Positions 4,903 to 12,582 of a DNA stretch of 12,582 nt are shown here, one piece after another. The notes beneath the pieces are model-generated. The model saw only the letters and a list, made by a program, of their open reading frames with translations, was not told where the DNA came from and did no database searches. The stretch is from the NCBI GenBank assembly GCA_946481065.1, contig CAMLMA010000049.1, forward strand, positions 1 through 12,582, read 5' to 3'. Source of the stretch: an uncultured Nitrosomonadales bacterium (GTDB lineage: Bacteria; Pseudomonadota; Gammaproteobacteria; Burkholderiales; Methylophilaceae). Position numbers and translations under genes: made by a program. Positions within the stretch are counted from its first letter, which is position 1. Each line of letters starts with the position of its first letter.

Positions 4903-5688
4903 ATGAACCTGACCACCCTGCAGCAGATGGCCGCCAGCGGCGACAAGATCGCCGTACTCACCGCCTATGACGCCAGTTTCGCCACCCTCTGCGCCCGCGC
5001 CGGCGTCGATGTACTGCTGGTGGGTGACTCACTGGGCATGGTGTTGCAAGGCGCCGACAGTACGCTAGCCGTGACCCTGCACGACATGCAATACCATACG
5101 CGCTGTGTCGCCAGGGGGGCTGCTGGCGCCTACATCGTCACCGACCTGCCCTTCGGCAGTTATCAGCAGAGTCCGGAACAGGCCTTTCGCAATGCCGCAC
5201 GCCTGATGGCCTCTGGCGCACAGATGGTCAAGCTCGAAGGCGGTGCGGTCATGACCGAGACCGTGCGTTTCCTGGTCGAGCGCGGCATCCCGGTGTGTGG
5301 CCACCTGGGCCTGACACCCCAATCCGTGCACCAGCTCGGCGGATACCGCGTGCAAGGCAAGGATCAAGCAGAGGCGCAGCGATTGGTCGCCGATGCGCAG
5401 GCGCTGGCTGATGCCGGTGCTGGCATGCTGGTGCTGGAGATGGTGCCCGCCTCGCTCGCCAAGACCATCACCGAAAGTGTGCGGATACCAACCATCGGCA
5501 TCGGCGCCGGCGTCGATTGCAGCGGTCAGGTGCTGGTCCTGCATGACATGCTCGGCATCTATCCCGGCAAGTCGCCGCGCTTCGTGCGCAATTTCATGCA
5601 AGGCGCGCCCTCCATCGCGCAAGCGCTCGAGGATTACGTCAAGGCGGTGAAGAGCAAGACCTTCCCCACGGCGGAGCACAGCTTCTGA
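4903..5688 (+). CDS. panB: 3-methyl-2-oxobutanoate hydroxymethyltransferase (ketopantoate hydroxymethyltransferase)
   Basis: Makes ketopantoate from alpha-ketoisovalerate and 5,10-methylene-tetrahydrofolate, the first committed step to pantothenate. The 261-residue protein has the expected TIM-barrel motifs: LTAYDASFA at 19-27, [11 protein letters not shown] at 40-50 with metal-binding D42, DLPFG at 81-85 with D81, VKLEGG at 109-114 with K110, the GHLGLTPQS segment at 133-141, and the general-base glutamate E179 in LVLEMVP. These line up with D45, D84, K114 and E181 of the E. coli enzyme. The gene begins 6 bases after the kinase stop without a clear Shine-Dalgarno, suggesting coupling, and overlaps panC by one base (TGATG). 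Its dependence on folate makes the nearby folK a sensible partner. Confidence 0.96.
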
Positions 5689-6521
5689 TGCACGTGGTGA
5701 GTACGGTCGCAGAACTGCGTCAGCGTCTTGGCAGCGAAACCTCCGTCGCTTTCGTGCCCACCATGGGCAACCTGCATGCAGGCCATCTCCATCTCGTTGA
5801 ACTGGCGAAGCAACACGCCAGGACCGTGGTGGTCAGCATCTTCGTCAATCCGCTGCAATTCGGCGCCAACGAAGATCTGGCCAATTACCCTCGCACCCCG
5901 GAAGCGGATTACGAAAAGCTCAAGCAGGCCGGCGCCGATATCGTCTTTACGCCGACCGTGGAAGAGATGTACCCGACCCCGCAGACGCTGCTGGTTGAGC
6001 CGCCGCCGATCGCCAACGAGCTCTGTGGCGCGGCCCGCCCAGGCCATTTCAAAGGTGTCGCGACGGTCGTGCTCAAGCTCTTCAATATGGTACAGCCGCA
6101 GGTGGCGGTGTTCGGCAAGAAGGATTTCCAGCAGCTCTTCGTCATCCGTGAGATGGTGCGCCAGTTGAACCTGCCGATCACTATCGTCGCCGGCGAGACC
6201 ATGCGCGAGCCTGACGGCCTGGCCATGAGTTCGCGCAACGGCTATCTGCAGCCGGCGCAGCGGGTTGAGGCACCGCGGCTGCATCGCGCCCTGCAGCAAG
6301 TGGTCACGGCCATGCAAGCGGGCGAGCAGGATCCCGTGACGATCGAAGCCCAGACGACGCAATACCTCACGCAACTGGGTTGGATCGTCGACTACATCTC
6401 GGTACGCGCGGCGAATACCCTGCAACCGGCGCAAGCGGATGACCGTGAGCTGATCGTGCTCGGGGCGGCCCGCCAGGGGCGCACTCGCCTCATCGACAAC
6501 CTCGAGTTCACACGTGACTGA
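5688..6521 (+). CDS. panC: Pantothenate synthetase (pantoate--beta-alanine ligase)
   Basis: Joins pantoate and beta-alanine with ATP through a pantoyl-adenylate. The 277-residue length is close to the E. coli enzyme (283). The nucleotidyl-transferase motif PTMGNLHAGHL occupies residues 24-34, with the HxxH pair at 30 and 33. FVNPLQFG follows near 52-59, then FGKKDFQQL (about 142-150) and the KMSKS-like adenylate-binding REPDGLAMSSRNGYL (about 174-188). The ATG shares its A with the panB stop, so the pair is translationally coupled. The ketopantoate reductase step between PanB and PanC is not encoded in this window and must come from elsewhere in the genome. Confidence 0.96.
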   Translation: MHVVSTVAELRQRLGSETSVAFVPTMGNLHAGHLHLVELAKQHARTVVVSIFVNPLQFGANEDLANYPRTPEADYEKLKQAGADIVFTPTVEEMYPTPQTLLVEPPPIANELCGAARPGHFKGVATVVLKLFNMVQPQVAVFGKKDFQQLFVIREMVRQLNLPITIVAGETMREPDGLAMSSRNGYLQPAQRVEAPRLHRALQQVVTAMQAGEQDPVTIEAQTTQYLTQLGWIVDYISVRAANTLQPAQADDRELIVLGAARQGRTRLIDNLEFTRD

Positions 6522-6528
6522 AGGTGTT

Positions 6529-6558
6529 TTTGCACCCCGGACCCGAACTGACTATAAT
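6529..6558 (+). promoter_or_regulatory. Sigma70-type promoter for panD
   Basis: A perfect -10 TATAAT at 6553-6558 is preceded by TTTGCA at 6529-6534 (18-base spacer, 4 of 6 matches to TTGACA) or TTGCAC at 6530-6535 (17-base spacer). It lies wholly in the 68-bp gap between panC and panD, so panD can be transcribed independently of panBC. The predicted start near 6565 gives a leader of about 25 bases. Confidence 0.7.
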
Positions 6559-6589
6559 AGCCATCCTTTTAGAATCAATTAGGTAGCCG

Positions 6590-6970
6590 ATGCAAAGAAC
6601 CATGCTCAAATCCAAGCTGCACCGCGTGCGCGTGACGCATTCGGAGCTGGACTATGAGGGCTCCTGCGCCATCGACGAGGCCCTGCTGGACGCCGCCGAT
6701 ATCCGCGAGTATCAGCAGATCGATATCTACAACATCAACAACGGCGAACGCTTCACCACGTACGCCATCCGTGCCCAACGCGGCTCGGGCACCATCTCGG
6801 TCAACGGTGCCGCAGCTCGCAAGGCCAGCCCCGGCGATCTGCTGATCATCGCCAGCTATGCCAGCTATAACGAGATCGAGCTGGAAAAATTCAAACCACA
6901 GCTGGTCTATGTCGATGCAGAGAACCGCATCAAGGACCAGCGACACGCCATCCCCGTGCAAGCCGCCTGA
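6590..6970 (+). CDS. panD: Aspartate 1-decarboxylase proenzyme
   Basis: Decarboxylates aspartate to beta-alanine, the second substrate of PanC. The 126-residue proenzyme is full length (E. coli 126). The self-cleavage site Gly24-Ser25 is present in YEGSCAID; Ser25 becomes the pyruvoyl cofactor. The substrate-binding arginine and the processing tyrosine are in [10 protein letters not shown] (R54, Y58), and the conserved [10 protein letters not shown] and [10 protein letters not shown] segments follow. The start ATG at 6590 has AGG at 6581-6583 as a Shine-Dalgarno; a second ATG at codon 5 would remove the conserved first residues. It has its own promoter, separating it from panBC, so beta-alanine supply may be set independently of the pantoate branch. 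Confidence 0.96.
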
Positions 6971-7097: not shown

Positions 7098-7127
7098 TTG
7101 ACACCGGCACTTTAACTTTTATATCTT
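7098..7127 (+). promoter_or_regulatory. Candidate sigma70 promoter for acs, -10 overlapped by operator
   Basis: A perfect -35 TTGACA lies at 7098-7103. Possible -10 hexamers are TATATC at 7120-7125 (16-base spacer) or TATCTT at 7122-7127 (18-base spacer); neither is a strong match. Both fall inside the palindromic element 7117-7142, so a protein bound there would exclude RNA polymerase. Predicted transcription start is near 7132-7134, leaving a leader of about 85 bases before acs. Confidence 0.55.
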
Positions 7128-7142
7128 ATATAAGACATATAA
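7117..7142 (+). promoter_or_regulatory. Palindromic operator upstream of acs
   Basis: An AT-rich imperfect inverted repeat of 26 bp, with 11 of 13 pairs matching, is centred on the perfect 12-bp palindrome TCTTATATAAGA (7124-7135). Its first 23 bases are identical to 9279-9301 in front of the lyase operon. A perfect core in two promoters of one gene cluster, within a GC-rich genome, indicates a binding site for a dimeric helix-turn-helix regulator. The regulator gene is not in the window and I cannot name its family; GntR-type is a reasonable guess. Confidence 0.75.
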
Positions 7143-7216: not shown

Positions 7217-9184
7217 ATGGCAAACGAACCCATCGAGAACAGCATCTTTGCGCCGAGCGCGGCGACGCTTGCCAACGCCACCGTGGCCGACATGGCCGCC
7301 TACCGCAAGCTATGCGAGGAAGCTGAGACCGACTACGAAGGCTTCTGGGGAAACCTCGCCACGACACTGCTCGACTGGCGCAAGCCGTTCACCCAAGTGC
7401 TGGACGAATCGGACGCGCCCTTCTATCGCTGGTTCGCCGACGGCCAGCTCAACGTCTCCTACAACTGCCTCGATCGCCATTTGCCGGACAAGGGCGACAA
7501 GACCGCCATCCTCTTCGAAGCCGATGATGGCGATGTCCGCAACGTGACCTACCGCACCCTGTTCCATGAAGTGTGCCGCTTCGCCAATGGGCTGAAGTCG
7601 CTCGATCTCAAGACCGGTGACCGTGTCATCCTTTACATGCCGATGGGCGTGGAGGCCATCGTCGCCATGCAGGCCTGCGCAAGACTGGGGCTCATCCACT
7701 CTGTCGTCTTTGGCGGCTTTTCGTCGAAGAGCCTGATCGAACGCATCCATGATGCCGGCGCACGCGTCGTCATCACCTGCGACGGCCAATACCGCGGCGG
7801 CAAGGAGATCCCGCTCAAGCCCGCCGTGGACGAAGCCCTGCAGGACCAAGGCTGCGCATGCGTAGAAAAGGTGGTGGTATTCAATCGCACTGGCGGCGAC
7901 GTCAACTGGGCGACCGGCCGAGACCTCTGGTGGCACGATCTCATCGCCGACCAGCCCGACACCTGCGAGCCGGTATGGGTCGATGCCGAGCATCCGCTCT
8001 TCCTGCTCTATACCTCGGGCTCCACCGGTAAACCAAAAGGCGTGCAGCACGCATCCGCGGGCTACCTGCTGCACGCGCTGAACACCATGCGCTGGACCTT
8101 CGACATCAAGGACAGCGACATCTTCTGGTGCACTGCCGATGTCGGCTGGATCACCGGCCACAGCTATGTCGCTTACGGCCCGCTCGCTGCCGGCTGCACC
8201 CAAGTCGTATTCGAAGGCGTGCCGACCTACCCCGACGCAGCGCGCTTCTGGCGCATGATCGAAAAACATCGCGTGACCGTCTTCTACACCGCGCCGACCG
8301 CCATCCGTTCGCTGATCAAGGCTTCGGAAGCGAACCCGGACGCCCATCCCGAGCGCTTCGACCTCAGCTCGCTGCGCTTGCTGGGCTCCGTCGGCGAACC
8401 GATCAACCCGGCCGCCTGGCGCTGGTACTACGAGCACGTCGGCGGCTCGCGCTGCCCTATCCTCGACACCTTCTGGCAGACCGAAACCGGCGGCCACGTG
8501 ATCACCCCATTACCCGTCACACCGCTGGTGCCCGGCTCCTGCACCCTGCCATTCCCTGGCATCCAGGCTGCCGTCGTTGACGAATCGGGCCAGGAAGTCG
8601 AATGGGGTACGGGCGGGTTCCTGGTCATCAAACGCCCATGGCCTTCGATGATCCGCACCATCTGGCATGACGACGAACGCTACAAGGCATCGTATTTCCC
8701 CGAGGACCTCGGCGGCAAACTGTATCTCGCCGGCGATGGCGCCATCCGTGACAAGACCACGGGTTACTTCACCATCATGGGCCGCATCGACGACGTATTG
8801 AACGTCTCCGGTCACCGCATGGGCACCATGGAGATCGAATCGGCCCTGGTCGCCAACCCGCTGGTGGCAGAGGCTGCCGTGGTCGGCAAGCCGCACGACA
8901 TCAAGGGTGAAGCCATCGTCGCCTATGTCGTGCTCAAGGGCATACGGCCACAGGGCGAGGACGCGAAAAAGATAGTCGCCAACCTGCGCGAATGGGTGGG
9001 CAAGGAGATCGGCCCGATCGCAAAACCTGACGACATCCGCTTCGGCGACAACCTGCCCAAGACCCGCTCAGGCAAGATCATGCGGCGCCTGTTGCGCACG
9101 CTGGCCAAGGGCGAAACGATCACGGCCGATGTATCGACATTGGAGAACCCGGCGATCCTCGATCAGTTCAAGCAACCACTTTGA
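7217..9184 (+). CDS. acs: Acetyl-CoA synthetase (AMP-forming)
   Basis: Activates acetate, and possibly propionate, to the acyl-CoA with ATP. The 655-residue length fits ACS. The AMP-binding P-loop [11 protein letters not shown] is at 265-275, GSVGEPINP at 390-398, [10 protein letters not shown] at 417-426, the hinge region [13 protein letters not shown] at 522-534, and the catalytic lysine K620 in TRSGKIMRR, the site acetylated in many ACS enzymes. The acyl pocket residues I312, T313, V392 and W420 match those of acetate-specific ACS; propionyl-CoA synthetase PrpE usually has Ala in the GEP motif where V392 sits. So acetate is the predicted substrate even though the genes downstream handle C3 compounds. 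A strong Shine-Dalgarno GGAGGA (7206-7211) precedes the ATG. It is a single-gene unit with a promoter and operator upstream and a hairpin and new promoter downstream. Confidence 0.9.
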
Positions 9185-9278: not shown

Positions 9279-9307
9279 TTTTATATCTTATATAAGACAT
9301 AAGATAT
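9279..9307 (+). promoter_or_regulatory. Palindromic operator upstream of the lyase-mch-prpB operon
   Basis: Contains the same 23-base sequence found before acs (7117-7139), with the perfect palindrome TCTTATATAAGA at 9286-9297. Directly after it, ATAAGATAT (9299-9307) is the exact inverted copy of ATATCTTAT (9283-9291), so three alternating half-sites overlap here and two different dimer registers are possible. The core is centred about 55 bases before the predicted transcription start and ends only 3 bases before the -35, a placement that suits activation better than simple blocking. The cognate regulator is not in the window. Confidence 0.75.
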
Positions 9308-9310
9308 TTA

Positions 9311-9340
9311 TTGACACTTCGAAAGCGCAGCCGATAGAAT
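9311..9340 (+). promoter_or_regulatory. Strong sigma70 promoter for the lyase-mch-prpB operon
   Basis: Perfect -35 TTGACA at 9311-9316 and -10 TAGAAT at 9335-9340 (5 of 6), with an 18-base spacer. Predicted start near 9347, giving a leader of about 80 bases before the ATG at 9430. Besides the operator and this promoter, the 245-bp gap after acs holds only the hairpin; I see no gene in it. Confidence 0.75.
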
Positions 9341-9429: not shown

Positions 9430-10311
9430 ATGAACAATCATCTAAGGCCACGCCGCTCCATGCTGTACGTGCCAGGCTGCAACACACGCTACCTGAACAA
9501 GGCGCGCTCATTGCGCGTGGATTCCGTCATTCTCGATCTTGGCGACCCCATCCTGGTCGAAGCCAAGGAGCAGTCGCGCCTGAACGTCGTCGAAGCCGTC
9601 AGGCAAGGCGGTTACGGCAAGCGTGAAGTGGTCGTCCGCGTCAACGATTTCGATTCGCCATGGGGTCGCGACGACATCAAGGCGGTCGCCAATATCGGCG
9701 CCGACGCCATCCTCTTCCCCAACATCGAGTCACGCGAGGATGTGCTGGTCGCGCTCGAAGCGCTCGACGCTGCGGGTGGCAAGCAGGTGCCTATCATGGT
9801 CATGATCGAGAGCCCCATCGCGGTGCTCAATGCCAAGGAGATCGCGGCCGCGTCGGATCGCATCATCTGCATGGTGGTCGCCACCTCTGACCTCATGTCG
9901 CAACTGCGGGCGCGCAAGACGCATGAACGTATCGCCCTCATCACCAGCCTGTCGATGGTGATCCTGGCGGCGCGCGCCTATGGTCGTGCGGTGATCGACG
10001 GTATCACCAACGATCTTAACGACATGCAGACCTTCGAATACTCCTGCCGCTTGGGCCGCGACCTCGGGTTCGACGGCAAGTCGCTGGTGCATCCGTCGCA
10101 GCTGGATTACAGCAACGACGCTTACACGCCACGCCCGACCGAGATCAAGCACGCGCAGGCCATCATCGAGGCACTGGCTGCCGCCAACGCCGCCGGGCGC
10201 GGTACCGTGGTGGTCGACGGCAAACTGGTGGAGCATCACCATGTCGCCGCCGCGCAGCAGCTGCTGGACATGAGCGCGATGATCGCCAAGCTGGAAGAAG
10301 GGTTCGAATGA
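9430..10311 (+). CDS. CitE-like CoA-ester lyase (HpcH/HpaI aldolase family), first paralogue
   Basis: A 293-residue protein of the CitE branch of the HpcH/HpaI aldolases, Mg-dependent TIM barrels that cleave or form CoA-esters such as malyl-CoA, beta-methylmalyl-CoA and citramalyl-CoA. Family landmarks: RSMLYVPG at 9-16, VRVND at 69-73, the metal-ligand glutamate E127 in MIESPIAVLNA, the second acidic ligand D154, and GFDGKSLVHPSQ at 213-224. Three usually conserved positions differ: DLGDP (36-40) for DLEDA, FPNIES (96-101) with Asn where PKVE has Lys, and VATSDL (150-155) for GTEDL. The metal ligands appear intact, so altered substrate range is more likely than loss of activity. The start has AGGG 7 bases upstream. 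It overlaps mch by 4 bases, implying a related reaction. Citramalyl-CoA or beta-methylmalyl-CoA lyase are the best candidates. Confidence 0.85.
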   Translation: MNNHLRPRRSMLYVPGCNTRYLNKARSLRVDSVILDLGDPILVEAKEQSRLNVVEAVRQGGYGKREVVVRVNDFDSPWGRDDIKAVANIGADAILFPNIESREDVLVALEALDAAGGKQVPIMVMIESPIAVLNAKEIAAASDRIICMVVATSDLMSQLRARKTHERIALITSLSMVILAARAYGRAVIDGITNDLNDMQTFEYSCRLGRDLGFDGKSLVHPSQLDYSNDAYTPRPTEIKHAQAIIEALAAANAAGRGTVVVDGKLVEHHHVAAAQQLLDMSAMIAKLEEGFE

Positions 10312-11369
10312 TGACGACCGCCAGCGGCAATTTCTTCGAACACTTCCGGCTCGGGCAGGAGATCCATCACGCCACGCCACGCACCATCACCGAAGGCGAG
10401 TGCGCGCTCTATATCGCCCTCACCGGCGCGCGCCAGCCCCTGCATTGCGCGACGCCCGTGGCCCAGGCGCTCGGCTATCGCGACAAGCCAGTGGATGATC
10501 TGCTGGCGTTCCATATCGCCTTCGCCAAGACCGTGCCCGACATCTCGGTCAACGCCGTGGCCAATCTCGGCTATGCCGATGTGCGCTTCCTGCGGCCGGT
10601 CTATGTCGGCGACACCCTGTTCACGACCTCGACCGTCATCGGCCTCAAGCAGAATTCCAACGGCAAGTCCGGGGTCGTCTATGTGCGATCCGAAAGCCGC
10701 AACCAGCACAGTGAAGTGGTATTGAGCTGGGTGCGCTGGGTCATGGTGCATAAGCGCGACCAGGATGCGCCAGCACCGGAAACCGTGATCCCGGAACTGC
10801 CGGCCGTGGTCGGCGTGAAGCAGCTCGCCATCCCGCGCTTCCTGCAGCCGACGCAACTGGCGTCGCACGCCACCGGCAGCACGCGCCTGTGGGACGATTA
10901 CCAGGCAGGCGAGCGCATCGACCACCCGGCTGGCATGACCGTGGACGACAGCGACCACACGCTGGCGACCAGGCTCTACCAGAACAACGCGCGCCTGCAC
11001 TTCGACGCCTTGATGATGCAGGATTCAGCGTTCGGCCAGCGCCTCATGTACGGCGGCCACGTGATCTCGGTTTGCCGTGCGCTGAGTTACGAAGGGCTGG
11101 AGAACGGCCTCAACATCGTCGCCATCAACGCCGGCACGCACTGCAATCCAAGCTTCGGGGGCGATACCTTCTATGCCGTGACCGAAGTGCTGGAGAAGTG
11201 GGAGCTACCGCAAGCGCACCTTGGTGCATTGCGCCTGCGCCTGCTCGGCCTGAAGAACCTGCACGGCTCCGCCCTGCCTGCGGCCAAAGTCGACGGCGGC
11301 GGCAAGAGCGACTATCACCCGAATGTCGTGCTCGATCTCGACTACACCATTTTGATGCCTCGCAGATAG
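10308..11369 (+). CDS. mch: Mesaconyl-CoA hydratase-type protein (beta-methylmalyl-CoA dehydratase), double hot-dog MaoC fold
   Basis: A 353-residue double hot-dog protein closely resembling, from memory, the mesaconyl-C1-CoA hydratase (Mch) of the 3-hydroxypropionate bi-cycle and ethylmalonyl-CoA pathway, which interconverts beta-methylmalyl-CoA and mesaconyl-C1-CoA. Strong landmarks are GNFFEHFRLGQ at 7-17, HATPRTITEG at 21-30, FAKTVPDISVNAVANLGYA at 72-90, VVLSWVRWVMVHKRD at 137-151, and LWDDYQAGERIDH at 194-206. The catalytic hydratase-like motif, with the histidine in RLHFD (H231), is followed by YGGHVIS at 248-254, and the carboxyl end is YTILMPRR. A Met-Met start makes 10308 or 10311 possible; 10308 gives the 4-base ATGA overlap with the lyase stop. 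The next lyase begins 11 bases downstream. Itaconyl-CoA hydratase is a less likely alternative. Confidence 0.85.
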   Translation: MMTTASGNFFEHFRLGQEIHHATPRTITEGECALYIALTGARQPLHCATPVAQALGYRDKPVDDLLAFHIAFAKTVPDISVNAVANLGYADVRFLRPVYVGDTLFTTSTVIGLKQNSNGKSGVVYVRSESRNQHSEVVLSWVRWVMVHKRDQDAPAPETVIPELPAVVGVKQLAIPRFLQPTQLASHATGSTRLWDDYQAGERIDHPAGMTVDDSDHTLATRLYQNNARLHFDALMMQDSAFGQRLMYGGHVISVCRALSYEGLENGLNIVAINAGTHCNPSFGGDTFYAVTEVLEKWELPQAHLGALRLRLLGLKNLHGSALPAAKVDGGGKSDYHPNVVLDLDYTILMPRR

Positions 11370-11380
11370 GAATAACGCGC

Positions 11381-12367
11381 ATGTCAGTCCATCCCAACGA
11401 AGCCTTGTTCGCCGGCGAGAAGCCGTTCCCGGTGATCCCCTCGTGCGAACATTTCGCCGGTAGCGAAAAGCTCATCCTCAAGGCGCTGTCGCTGCAGGAT
11501 AGCCTGGGGCCGATCTTCGACATCACCTGCGATTGCGAAGACGGCGCCGCCTCGGGCCAGGAACGCGAACACGCCGAGATGATCGTGCGCGTGCTCAATT
11601 CAGACGCCAACAAGCACCGCATGGCCGGCGCACGCATCCACGACTACACCCACCCTGCGTGGAAGCAGGATATCGATATCCTCGTTGGTGGCGCAGGCCA
11701 GGTGCTGAGCTACATCACCATCCCCAAGTGCACGCGCGCCGCCCAGGCTGCCGAGATGATCGCCTACCTGCAGAAGGTCGCCACTTCCCACGGCATCCAG
11801 CGCGAGATCCCGGTGCATGTGCTGATCGAGACCCACGGCGCGCTGCATGAAGTTTATGAGATCGCCGCCCTGCCCTGGTTGCAGGTGCTGGATTTCGGCC
11901 TCATGGATTTCGTCAGCGGCCATCACGGCGCCATCCCCGCGAGCGCGATGCGCAGTCCCGGACAGTTCGAGCATCGTCTGCTGGCCCGCGCCAAGGCTGA
12001 TGTCGTCGCCGCTGCACTGGCGCACGGCGTGGTGCCTGCGCATAACGTCACGCTGGACCTGAAGAACACGGAGACCACCTACAGCGACGCCAGCCGCGCG
12101 CGCAACGAGTTCGGTTTCATGCGCATGTGGAGCATCTACCCGACGCAGATCCAGGCCATCGTCGACGCCATGAAGCCCGACTACAGCGAGGTCGAGGATG
12201 CCGCCAATATCCTGCTGGCTGCCCAGCAGGCCGAATGGGGGCCGATCCAATACGCCGGAGAACTGCACGACCGTGCGACCTACCGCTACTTCTGGGAAGT
12301 GCTGCAAAAGGCCCGCATCACCGGGGTGGGTATCCCGCAGAACGCGACCCACGCTTTTTTCGCTTAA
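11381..12367 (+). CDS. Divergent CitE-like/malyl-CoA lyase-like protein (HpcH/HpaI aldolase family), second paralogue
   Basis: A 328-residue member of the same aldolase superfamily as the first lyase but only distantly similar to it. The layout is recognisable: DCEDGA at 51-56 (family DLEDA), ARIHDYTHPAW at 84-94, IPKCTRA at 114-120 with the Lys kept, E150 in LIETHGAL, D176 in FGLMDFVSG, and WSIYPTQI at 250-257 for the family HPxQ motif. A carboxyl extension of roughly 60 residues beyond that is longer than in the first lyase and reminiscent of Chloroflexus malyl-CoA lyase. AGGA (11368-11371) serves as Shine-Dalgarno; the frame is open upstream inside mch, but this ATG gives the proper amino terminus. 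Likely substrates are beta-methylmalyl-CoA, malyl-CoA or citramalyl-CoA. prpB starts 22 bases after the stop. Confidence 0.8.
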   Translation: MSVHPNEALFAGEKPFPVIPSCEHFAGSEKLILKALSLQDSLGPIFDITCDCEDGAASGQEREHAEMIVRVLNSDANKHRMAGARIHDYTHPAWKQDIDILVGGAGQVLSYITIPKCTRAAQAAEMIAYLQKVATSHGIQREIPVHVLIETHGALHEVYEIAALPWLQVLDFGLMDFVSGHHGAIPASAMRSPGQFEHRLLARAKADVVAAALAHGVVPAHNVTLDLKNTETTYSDASRARNEFGFMRMWSIYPTQIQAIVDAMKPDYSEVEDAANILLAAQQAEWGPIQYAGELHDRATYRYFWEVLQKARITGVGIPQNATHAFFA

Positions 12368-12389
12368 CGGCCAAGCTTAAAGGATCACC

Positions 12390-12582
12390 ATGAGTCAGCT
12401 CCATTCCGCCGGTGCCCGTTTCCGCGCCGCGCTCGCCGCCGAGAAGCCGCTACAGATCATCGGCGCCATCAACGCCTACCATGCGCGCCTGGCGACGCAG
12501 ACCGGCTACAAGGCCATCTACCTTTCTGGCGGCGGTGTCGCAGCCGGTTCGCTCGGCTTGCCGGATCTCGGCATCTCGACGC
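12390..12582 (+). CDS. prpB: 2-methylisocitrate lyase, 5' end only
   Basis: The last step of the methylcitrate cycle, cleaving 2-methylisocitrate to pyruvate and succinate. Only the first 64 codons are present before the window ends. They read through [16 protein letters not shown] and [19 protein letters not shown], nearly the same as the start of E. coli PrpB (PLQIVGTINANHALLA, then [19 protein letters not shown]), which separates it from isocitrate lyase and phosphonomutase relatives. The active-site KKCGH-type motif lies beyond the end. The Shine-Dalgarno is AAAGGA (12379-12384). It is in the same operon as the two lyases and mch; prpC and prpD would be expected next, outside the window. 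Confidence 0.93.

Follow-up and report, generated by a model that had tools for sequence, protein, structure and literature searches.

The window analysed here is a stretch of 12,582 nucleotides (contig CAMLMA010000049.1) from an uncultured Nitrosomonadales bacterium of the Methylophilaceae. At its right end lies an operon in which the genes of two CitE-superfamily proteins, cyl1 and cyl2, flank the gene of a mesaconyl-coenzyme A (CoA) hydratase-like protein, mch, and are followed by prpB of the methylcitrate cycle. The gene arrangement itself is already published; the additions made here are enzyme assignments, a predicted operator and a comparison of two modules, and on the whole we lean towards the view that through this operon the methylcitrate cycle is connected with the mesaconyl-CoA end of the ethylmalonyl-CoA pathway. 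The features concerned are as follows.

9430-10311, + strand: cyl1, open frame with PF03328; Mcl2-like CitE-superfamily protein, predicted malyl-CoA-type thioesterase with an altered active site
10308-11369, + strand: mch (published name maoC), open frame; predicted mesaconyl-C1-CoA hydratase
11381-12367, + strand: cyl2, open frame with PF03328; CoA-ester C-C lyase, predicted beta-methylmalyl-CoA/malyl-CoA lyase
12390-12582, + strand, cut by the window end: prpB, 2-methylisocitrate lyase, first 64 codons visible
9282-9308, no strand: predicted GntR operator TATATCTTATATAAGACATAAGATATT, its core present before cyl1 in 67 of 71 loci
9311-9340, + strand: sigma-70 promoter TTGACA-18-TAGAAT, matching 11 of 12 consensus positions

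The order lyase, mch, lyase, prpB described in an earlier note on this DNA, with gaps of -4, 11 and 22 bases (cyl1/mch, mch/cyl2 and cyl2/prpB), is confirmed as a run of open frames on the + strand. The 353-residue mch product scores 68.3 bits against PF19315 (Mesaconyl-CoA hydratase, cut-off 26.5) and is close to the 350 residues expected of such a hydratase. Its nearest solved chains are 4e3e (411.7 bits, 55% identity), which we take to be the Chloroflexus Mch, and 8hgn ('Beta-methylmalyl-CoA dehydratase', 358 bits), the next MaoC type reaching only 60 bits. Residues N226 and H231, presumably the conserved Asn/His motif of the second hot-dog half of Mch, are kept in all 80 aligned rows and are present in 4e3e and 8hgn as well, whereas the NCBIfam equivalogs for the haloarchaeal 2-methylfumaryl-CoA hydratase and for RipB are not reached (69.4 against 560 bits and 107.1 against 340). 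A tree of 17 rows, in which identity to a Ruegeria MaoC protein encoded with sdh is 51%, has no outgroup, so that membership of the Mch clade rests on the bit-score gap; the Mch-type hydratase of the earlier note is supported. The published 'maoC' is thus Mch-like, with mesaconyl-C1-CoA hydratase as its predicted activity. The closest genome matches are all from Methylophilaceae (89% identity in a Methylotenera metagenome-assembled genome (MAG), locus L001, and 80% in Methylobacillus flagellatus L1B and Pseudomethylobacillus), and in an order-wide sample of 300 genomes Mch relatives with E <= 1e-60 occur in 19.

The cyl1 protein is probably of the thioesterase type rather than a C-C lyase. The available text of PMC3832036 describes an Asp in the active-site lid that is kept across the CitE-like superfamily and the malate synthases, except in a cluster containing the malyl-CoA thioesterase of R. 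sphaeroides, which has Glu. Alignment rows for cyl1, cyl2 and cyl3 (a third paralogue found in relatives) comprised the window protein, where there is one, and matches above 45% identity and 85% coverage, all others being dropped; the lid residue is Glu in all 71 cyl1 rows (Glu268 in the window protein), and the Mg-binding Asp is kept in 70 of them. A CitE-family tree was built on 32 rows, of which 12 were references, 11 came from the 71 cyl1 rows, five from the 72 of cyl2 and four from the 54 of cyl3. In it cyl1 joins proteins of Ruegeria, Tritonibacter, Rhodococcus, Methylobacterium, Sphingomonas and Sinorhizobium (support 91/89), all with lid Glu, and stands apart from three groups with lid Asp, namely Mcl1 (98/99), cyl2 and cyl3; human CLYBL, 9nzb and some other rows drew a long-branch warning from the tree tool. 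The Ruegeria cyl1-like gene is separated from the MaoC gene by NnrU and DUF1737 genes, with sdh genes beyond. Since this is the spacing of Paracoccus mcl-2 (malyl-CoA thioesterase) and mch, given in the part of the literature available to us as Pden_0563 and Pden_0566, the Ruegeria protein is taken as Mcl2 by synteny. A Sulfuricella MAG (L065, 2781-9851) carries two cyl1 paralogues, one beside gntR and the other within a cyl3-ligase-cyl1-mch-cyl2 series.

Of the two CoA-ester lyases proposed in the earlier note, one, cyl1, with its thioesterase hallmarks, is probably not a C-C lyase. All six lyase catalytic residues and the lid Asp are kept in 72 of 72 cyl2 rows, and the protein is 70% identical to the solved chain 3qqw ('Putative citrate lyase') and 52% to 3r4i ('Citrate Lyase'). 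In cyl3 the catalytic residues are kept in 54 of 54 rows save for one X, and the lid Asp in all 54. Three Cupriavidus loci (L073, L074 and L076) have mch and cyl2 with no matches to cyl1 or prpBCD, an arrangement suggesting that the lyase acting on the Mch product is cyl2; a citramalyl-CoA lyase, if present, is more likely to be cyl3, which lies outside the window. HpcH/HpaI proteins over cut-off number three in 12 of 13 isolate genomes and four in the other. In Cupriavidus L073 (2642-12541), mch and cyl2 lie near genes for an MmgE/PrpD protein, a thiolase-like protein and an SDR, another uncharacterised cluster.

Upstream of cyl1, a 27-base element with the consensus TATATCTTATATAAGACATAAGATATA is present in 67 of 71 loci, the others being L010 (a contig edge is the likely cause), L029, L054 and L055. 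Its 19-base core is exact in 59 of the 67, and TTGACA follows the core at 6 bases in 65 of them and at 13 bases in the other two. The single strong promoter of the earlier note is supported in this way: taken alone the window promoter is weak (one found against a mean of 0.7 in shuffled sequences), but it is backed by the constant operator-TTGACA spacing, and 46 of the 67 loci have promoters scoring 12 of 12. Within 1.39 Mb of loci, allowing up to four mismatches, the operator occurs elsewhere only by gntR (L001-L003 and L055) and in the gap between panD and acs of the window. Whole-genome scans gave 45 matches against seven for a reversed control pattern. Among these, a site with two mismatches lies between prpB and gntR in Sulfuricella; another operator-like site of that genome (L117, 5021-6117), also with two mismatches, lies between dctP and the preceding gene, just before the TRAP (tripartite ATP-independent periplasmic) dctP frame, so that dicarboxylate uptake is possibly within the regulon; and one Methylophaga has a two-mismatch site before an sdh/frd-like operon. 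Matches with two or three mismatches at L105, L115, L116, L118 and L120 fall beside or within genes that by eye have no evident connection, and were taken as chance. From the divergent orientation of gntR and its co-occurrence with the element we infer that GntR binds this operator.

The grouping of these genes exceeds chance, since cyl1, cyl2 and prpB are all present in 59 of the 80 mch loci examined (the best 80 of 116 relatives). The window shows only the start of prpB (its 64 residues score 100.5 bits against NF008455, under the 353-bit cut-off because the protein is partial), but prpB, prpC and prpD occur in 61, 59 and 55 of the 80 loci, and the prp operon of the earlier note is supported from these relatives. 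At seven of the 19 loci without prpB the sequence is interrupted by a contig end or gap. In most Methylophilaceae loci of sufficient length the cluster also includes fum, an AMP-binding ligase gene, cyl3, sdh, malic enzyme and, on the opposite strand, gntR, with prpC and prpD behind prpB. In 30 loci the sequence continues for 300 bases or more past the ligase gene. Of these, 22 have fum directly behind the ligase gene and one (L029) has it beside cyl3; the seven without it are four Methylophaga, two Sulfuricella and L047, where only 543 bases are available.

Comparison with other organisms suggests how this cluster is composed. In Sulfuricella sp. T08 the operator is flanked by prpB, prpC and prpD on one side and by gntR, malic enzyme and sdh on the other (L119), and cyl3-ligase-cyl1-mch-cyl2 lies on a separate contig (L054). 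The same five genes occur in a second Sulfuricella (L065) and in a split version in Sideroxydans (L006), and no prp gene was found in the 4-9 kb available behind cyl2 at these loci; L029 has the five genes as well, but its sequence ends 255 bases behind cyl2, and contig ends or gaps likewise interrupt L070 and L072, which were listed with it. In Methylophilaceae, cyl1-mch-cyl2 is situated between the operator and prpB. Because the two sets are apart in Sulfuricella sp. T08, the Methylophilaceae cluster seems to have arisen by the joining of two modules. The MAG contig L055 (1-5907), which has Bordetella parapertussis in its title, bears gntR, cyl1, mch and cyl2 of the methylotroph/Sulfuricella type, and its label is probably a mis-assignment. 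Elsewhere mch lies near a class III CoA-transferase and a CitE-like lyase, in Caballeronia (L077, 15036-17217, by Pfam) and Herbaspirillum (L078, 708-3087, by eye), an Mct-type layout that is not found in Methylophilaceae.

Genes of the known mesaconyl-CoA routes were sought in 13 relatives (10 Methylophilaceae, two Methylophaga and one Sulfuricella). Class III CoA-transferases were found in 0 of 13, which does not support the option left by the earlier note that the route is completed by an Mct elsewhere, and the 3-hydroxypropionate branch with Mct was rejected accordingly. Ccr gave no match over cut-off in any of the 13 (weak matches in all, the best at 92 bits against 378.6), and the ethylmalonyl-CoA pathway proper was likewise rejected. 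The same holds for a methylaspartate route, as methylaspartate ammonia-lyase was over cut-off in 0 of 13 (weak sub-cut-off matches in seven), and methylmalonyl-CoA mutase, present in only two of 13, was rejected as a general exit for propionyl-CoA. Malate synthase was found in 0 of 13, and SucA only in Sulfuricella. The isocitrate lyase family gives one weak match in each of the 13, located at the cluster prpB in 12 and at the separate prpB in Sulfuricella, so that the sole matches to this family are PrpB.

From the gene content and order, the residues, the operator and promoter and these absences a scheme can be drawn in which every substrate, direction and regulator contact is a prediction from sequence. 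Mch and cyl2 would interconvert mesaconyl-C1-CoA, beta-methylmalyl-CoA, and propionyl-CoA plus glyoxylate; PrpC, PrpD and PrpB would convert propionyl-CoA and oxaloacetate to pyruvate and succinate, and the products of sdh, fumarase and malic enzyme genes in the cluster of relatives would process the succinate. Glyoxylate and acetyl-CoA would be condensed by cyl2 to malyl-CoA, and cyl1 would hydrolyse this to malate, so that organisms lacking malate synthase would have an apparent activity of that enzyme; a lyase and thioesterase pair of this kind is described for M. extorquens in the text available. Entry into mesaconyl-CoA, from mesaconate, ATP and CoA, would probably be via the ligase, with cyl3 and class I fumarase, since neither Ccr nor a CoA-transferase was found in relatives. 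This is the weakest step, for which the ligase, cyl3 and class I fumarase genes adjoining in relatives suggest mesaconate or citramalate. The GntR regulator at the conserved operator would switch cyl1-mch-cyl2-prpBCD as a unit. Run in one direction the scheme may be C5-acid catabolism; in the other, pyruvate regenerated by PrpB may close a cycle whose net result equals that of the glyoxylate cycle, as a genetic counterpart of the citramalate cycle of PMC8307300. The idea of the earlier note that mesaconate-derived propionyl-CoA feeds the methylcitrate cycle fits the predicted functions of these genes, and for Paracoccus the available text proposes that propionyl-CoA of the ethylmalonyl pathway leaves via the prp genes, the prp operon being up 300-fold on acetate. 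Taking maoC for Mch and cyl1 for an Mcl2-like thioesterase specifies which CoA esters should be sought.

Several observations weigh against this scheme. The available text of PMC3832036 gives Glu44 and Asp45, which bind water as a pair, as absolutely conserved in the superfamily; in cyl1, Asp45 is retained in 64 of 71 rows, but Glu44 is replaced by Gly in 66 of 71 (Gly38 in the window protein), and without it cyl1 may catalyse a different reaction, or none. These Gly-type rows have Cys17 (66 of 66), Asn98 (64 of 66), Asp or Asn73 (65 of 66) and His270 (66 of 66), where the Glu-type rows (n=13) have mostly Ser, Lys, Gly/Ala and Leu at positions 17, 98, 73 and 270. By these residues the active site is remodelled, and with Glu44 lost we call the protein Mcl2-like and not Mcl2. 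The fork joining cyl1 to the putative Mcl2 group has support under the tree tool's star, in a tree that does not include the R. sphaeroides enzyme. In the same tree cyl2 falls outside the Mcl1 clade, on its own branch with 3qqw and 3r4i, and is only 25-26% identical to Mcl1. The cyl3, ligase, fumarase and gntR genes lie outside the window and are seen in relatives only, and these bacteria have been described as obligate methylotrophs. The class I fumarase, finally, may owe its presence simply to the want of a clear FumC in the 10 Methylophilaceae (best scores of 42-51 bits; one of the 13 relatives is over the cut-off of 664.75, and the two Methylophaga reach 610 and 656), and for this reason it was dropped as specific proof of a mesaconase.

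Other explanations of the locus share much of this evidence. The operon could serve catabolism of an external C5 dicarboxylate: mesaconate (or citramalate or methylmalate) would be imported, the ligase would activate it, Mch and cyl2 would split it, and the rest would be disposal. That ligase and cyl3 remain with cyl1-mch-cyl2 at loci without adjacent prp (L006, L054 and L065) argues for it, as do the Sulfuricella operator-like site directly before dctP and the failure to find methylaspartate ammonia-lyase over cut-off, which leaves no internal mesaconate source of that kind; in OM43, adjacent genes annotated as HpcH/HpaI aldolase and as fatty acid-CoA ligase, which by these names are presumably cyl3 and the ligase, rise with dissolved organic matter according to the available text. 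However, no transporter was recognised within the cluster and the dctP site is in one genome only, and we regard this explanation as possible, though on the unlikely side. The recurrence of the lyase-ligase-mch set at the same three loci, together with mch-cyl2 alone in Cupriavidus, speaks against an ordinary propionate operon that has recruited CoA-ester enzymes for unrelated acyl-CoAs, in which the similarity to Mch would have no bearing on substrate. Such an operon seems unlikely to us, even though it is closest to the published description (methylcitric acid cycle genes with an unknown metabolite, in the text available) and the Sulfuricella operator adjoins prp without the lyases.

Less probable still would be a route modelled on the second part of the 3-hydroxypropionate bi-cycle, co-assimilating glyoxylate and propionyl-CoA to pyruvate and acetyl-CoA, where a thioesterase, a fumarase and the ligase would take over from Mct and Meh. 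Mch, the lyases, class I fumarase and ligase genes do adjoin one another in Methylophilaceae, and class I fumarases are able to hydrate mesaconate (PMC4682846, available text); but the operon is shared with prpBCD, a competitor for propionyl-CoA, and fum is not beside the ligase gene in seven of the 30 loci with room for it.

A junction of mesaconyl-CoA chemistry with the methylcitrate cycle could also extend to acetate, and two further features of the window bear on this.

7217-9184, + strand: acs, acetate--CoA ligase; TIGR02188 at 959 bits (cut-off 725)
7117-7142, no strand: second operator-like site, between panD and acs; core with two mismatches, both strands scanned

All propionate--CoA ligase models stay below cut-off for acs. 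The second site lies 75 bases before acs and was seen in this window only, where it hints that acetate activation may belong to the same regulon as the cyl1 operon. In L001-L003, gntR lies upstream of acs. Sites with three mismatches near acs in three Methylophilus were withdrawn: that of L123 coincides with codons 48-54 of a divergent GlnE-like frame (by eye), and the other two share its layout, so that the conservation there is likely that of coding sequence.

In its fullest form the scheme would be a complete cycle for acetyl-CoA assimilation without isocitrate lyase, malate synthase, Ccr, B12 mutase or CoA-transferase. Acetyl-CoA and pyruvate would give citramalate (cyl3 and thioesterase), then mesaconate (class I fumarase) and mesaconyl-CoA (ligase); Mch and cyl2 would release propionyl-CoA and glyoxylate; glyoxylate and acetyl-CoA would give malate (cyl2 and cyl1); and PrpCDB would turn propionyl-CoA and oxaloacetate into succinate and the starting pyruvate, a net of one succinate from two acetyl-CoA. 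The similar operator at acs in the window bears on this cycle. We think it improbable, and slightly more so since the Methylophilus acs sites proved to fall in a coding frame. If true, it would give methylotrophs, which are widespread, as well as some iron and sulfur oxidisers a route for C2 or C5 acids that has gone unrecognised, and would provide a candidate gene set for the disputed citramalate cycle.

That cycle, proposed for Rhodospirillum rubrum (PMC8307300, available text), shares the series citramalate, mesaconate, mesaconyl-CoA, methylmalyl-CoA, and propionyl-CoA plus glyoxylate, but there, in a cycle whose operation is disputed, the return is via succinyl-CoA and a CoA-transferase carries out the activation. 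In the present scheme the methylcitrate cycle would serve as the return, and a ligase would activate. The lower part of the ethylmalonyl-CoA pathway (Mch, Mcl1 and Mcl2 of Rhodobacter, Paracoccus and Methylobacterium) is similar in its Mch-type hydratase, CitE-superfamily lyase and Mcl2-like protein, and in the Ruegeria neighbourhood that unites an mcl2-like gene, mch and sdh. It differs in that the relatives have no Ccr over cut-off, propionyl-CoA would pass to the methylcitrate cycle, the lyase is outside the Mcl1 clade and cyl1 lacks Glu44. The second part of the 3-hydroxypropionate bi-cycle of Chloroflexus has the same Mch and lyase chemistry and is set apart by its class III CoA-transferase.

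The cluster is described as methylcitric acid cycle genes of Methylophilaceae in PMC4109929 and PMC3728764, with the same genes (prpCBD, cyl1, maoC, cyl2, gntR, mdh, sdh, cyl3, prpE and fum) and with no C5 role stated in the available text of either. PMC3728764 (2013), as available, reports that the cluster is highly expressed in situ in Methylotenera, generally above the main C1 assimilation pathway, that Methylovorus lacks it and that the metabolite concerned is unknown. The published 'prpE' seems to be the ligase gene beside cyl3, for whose partial protein none of 25 NCBIfam models reached cut-off. The window differs from the cluster described there in having acs beside cyl1. Among the matches listed from the open-licence literature none gives a C5 reading for Methylophilaceae, which cannot settle priority.

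A scan of the window for Rfam families and tRNAs found nothing. Upstream of acs, panB, panC and panD lie in tandem (4903-6970; PanD by Pfam, PanB and PanC by eye), and the adjacency of these CoA-precursor genes to CoA-ester genes is probably coincidence. Further to the left, at 256-2246, are ABC permease and ATPase genes that by eye are of the sulfate/thiosulfate type.

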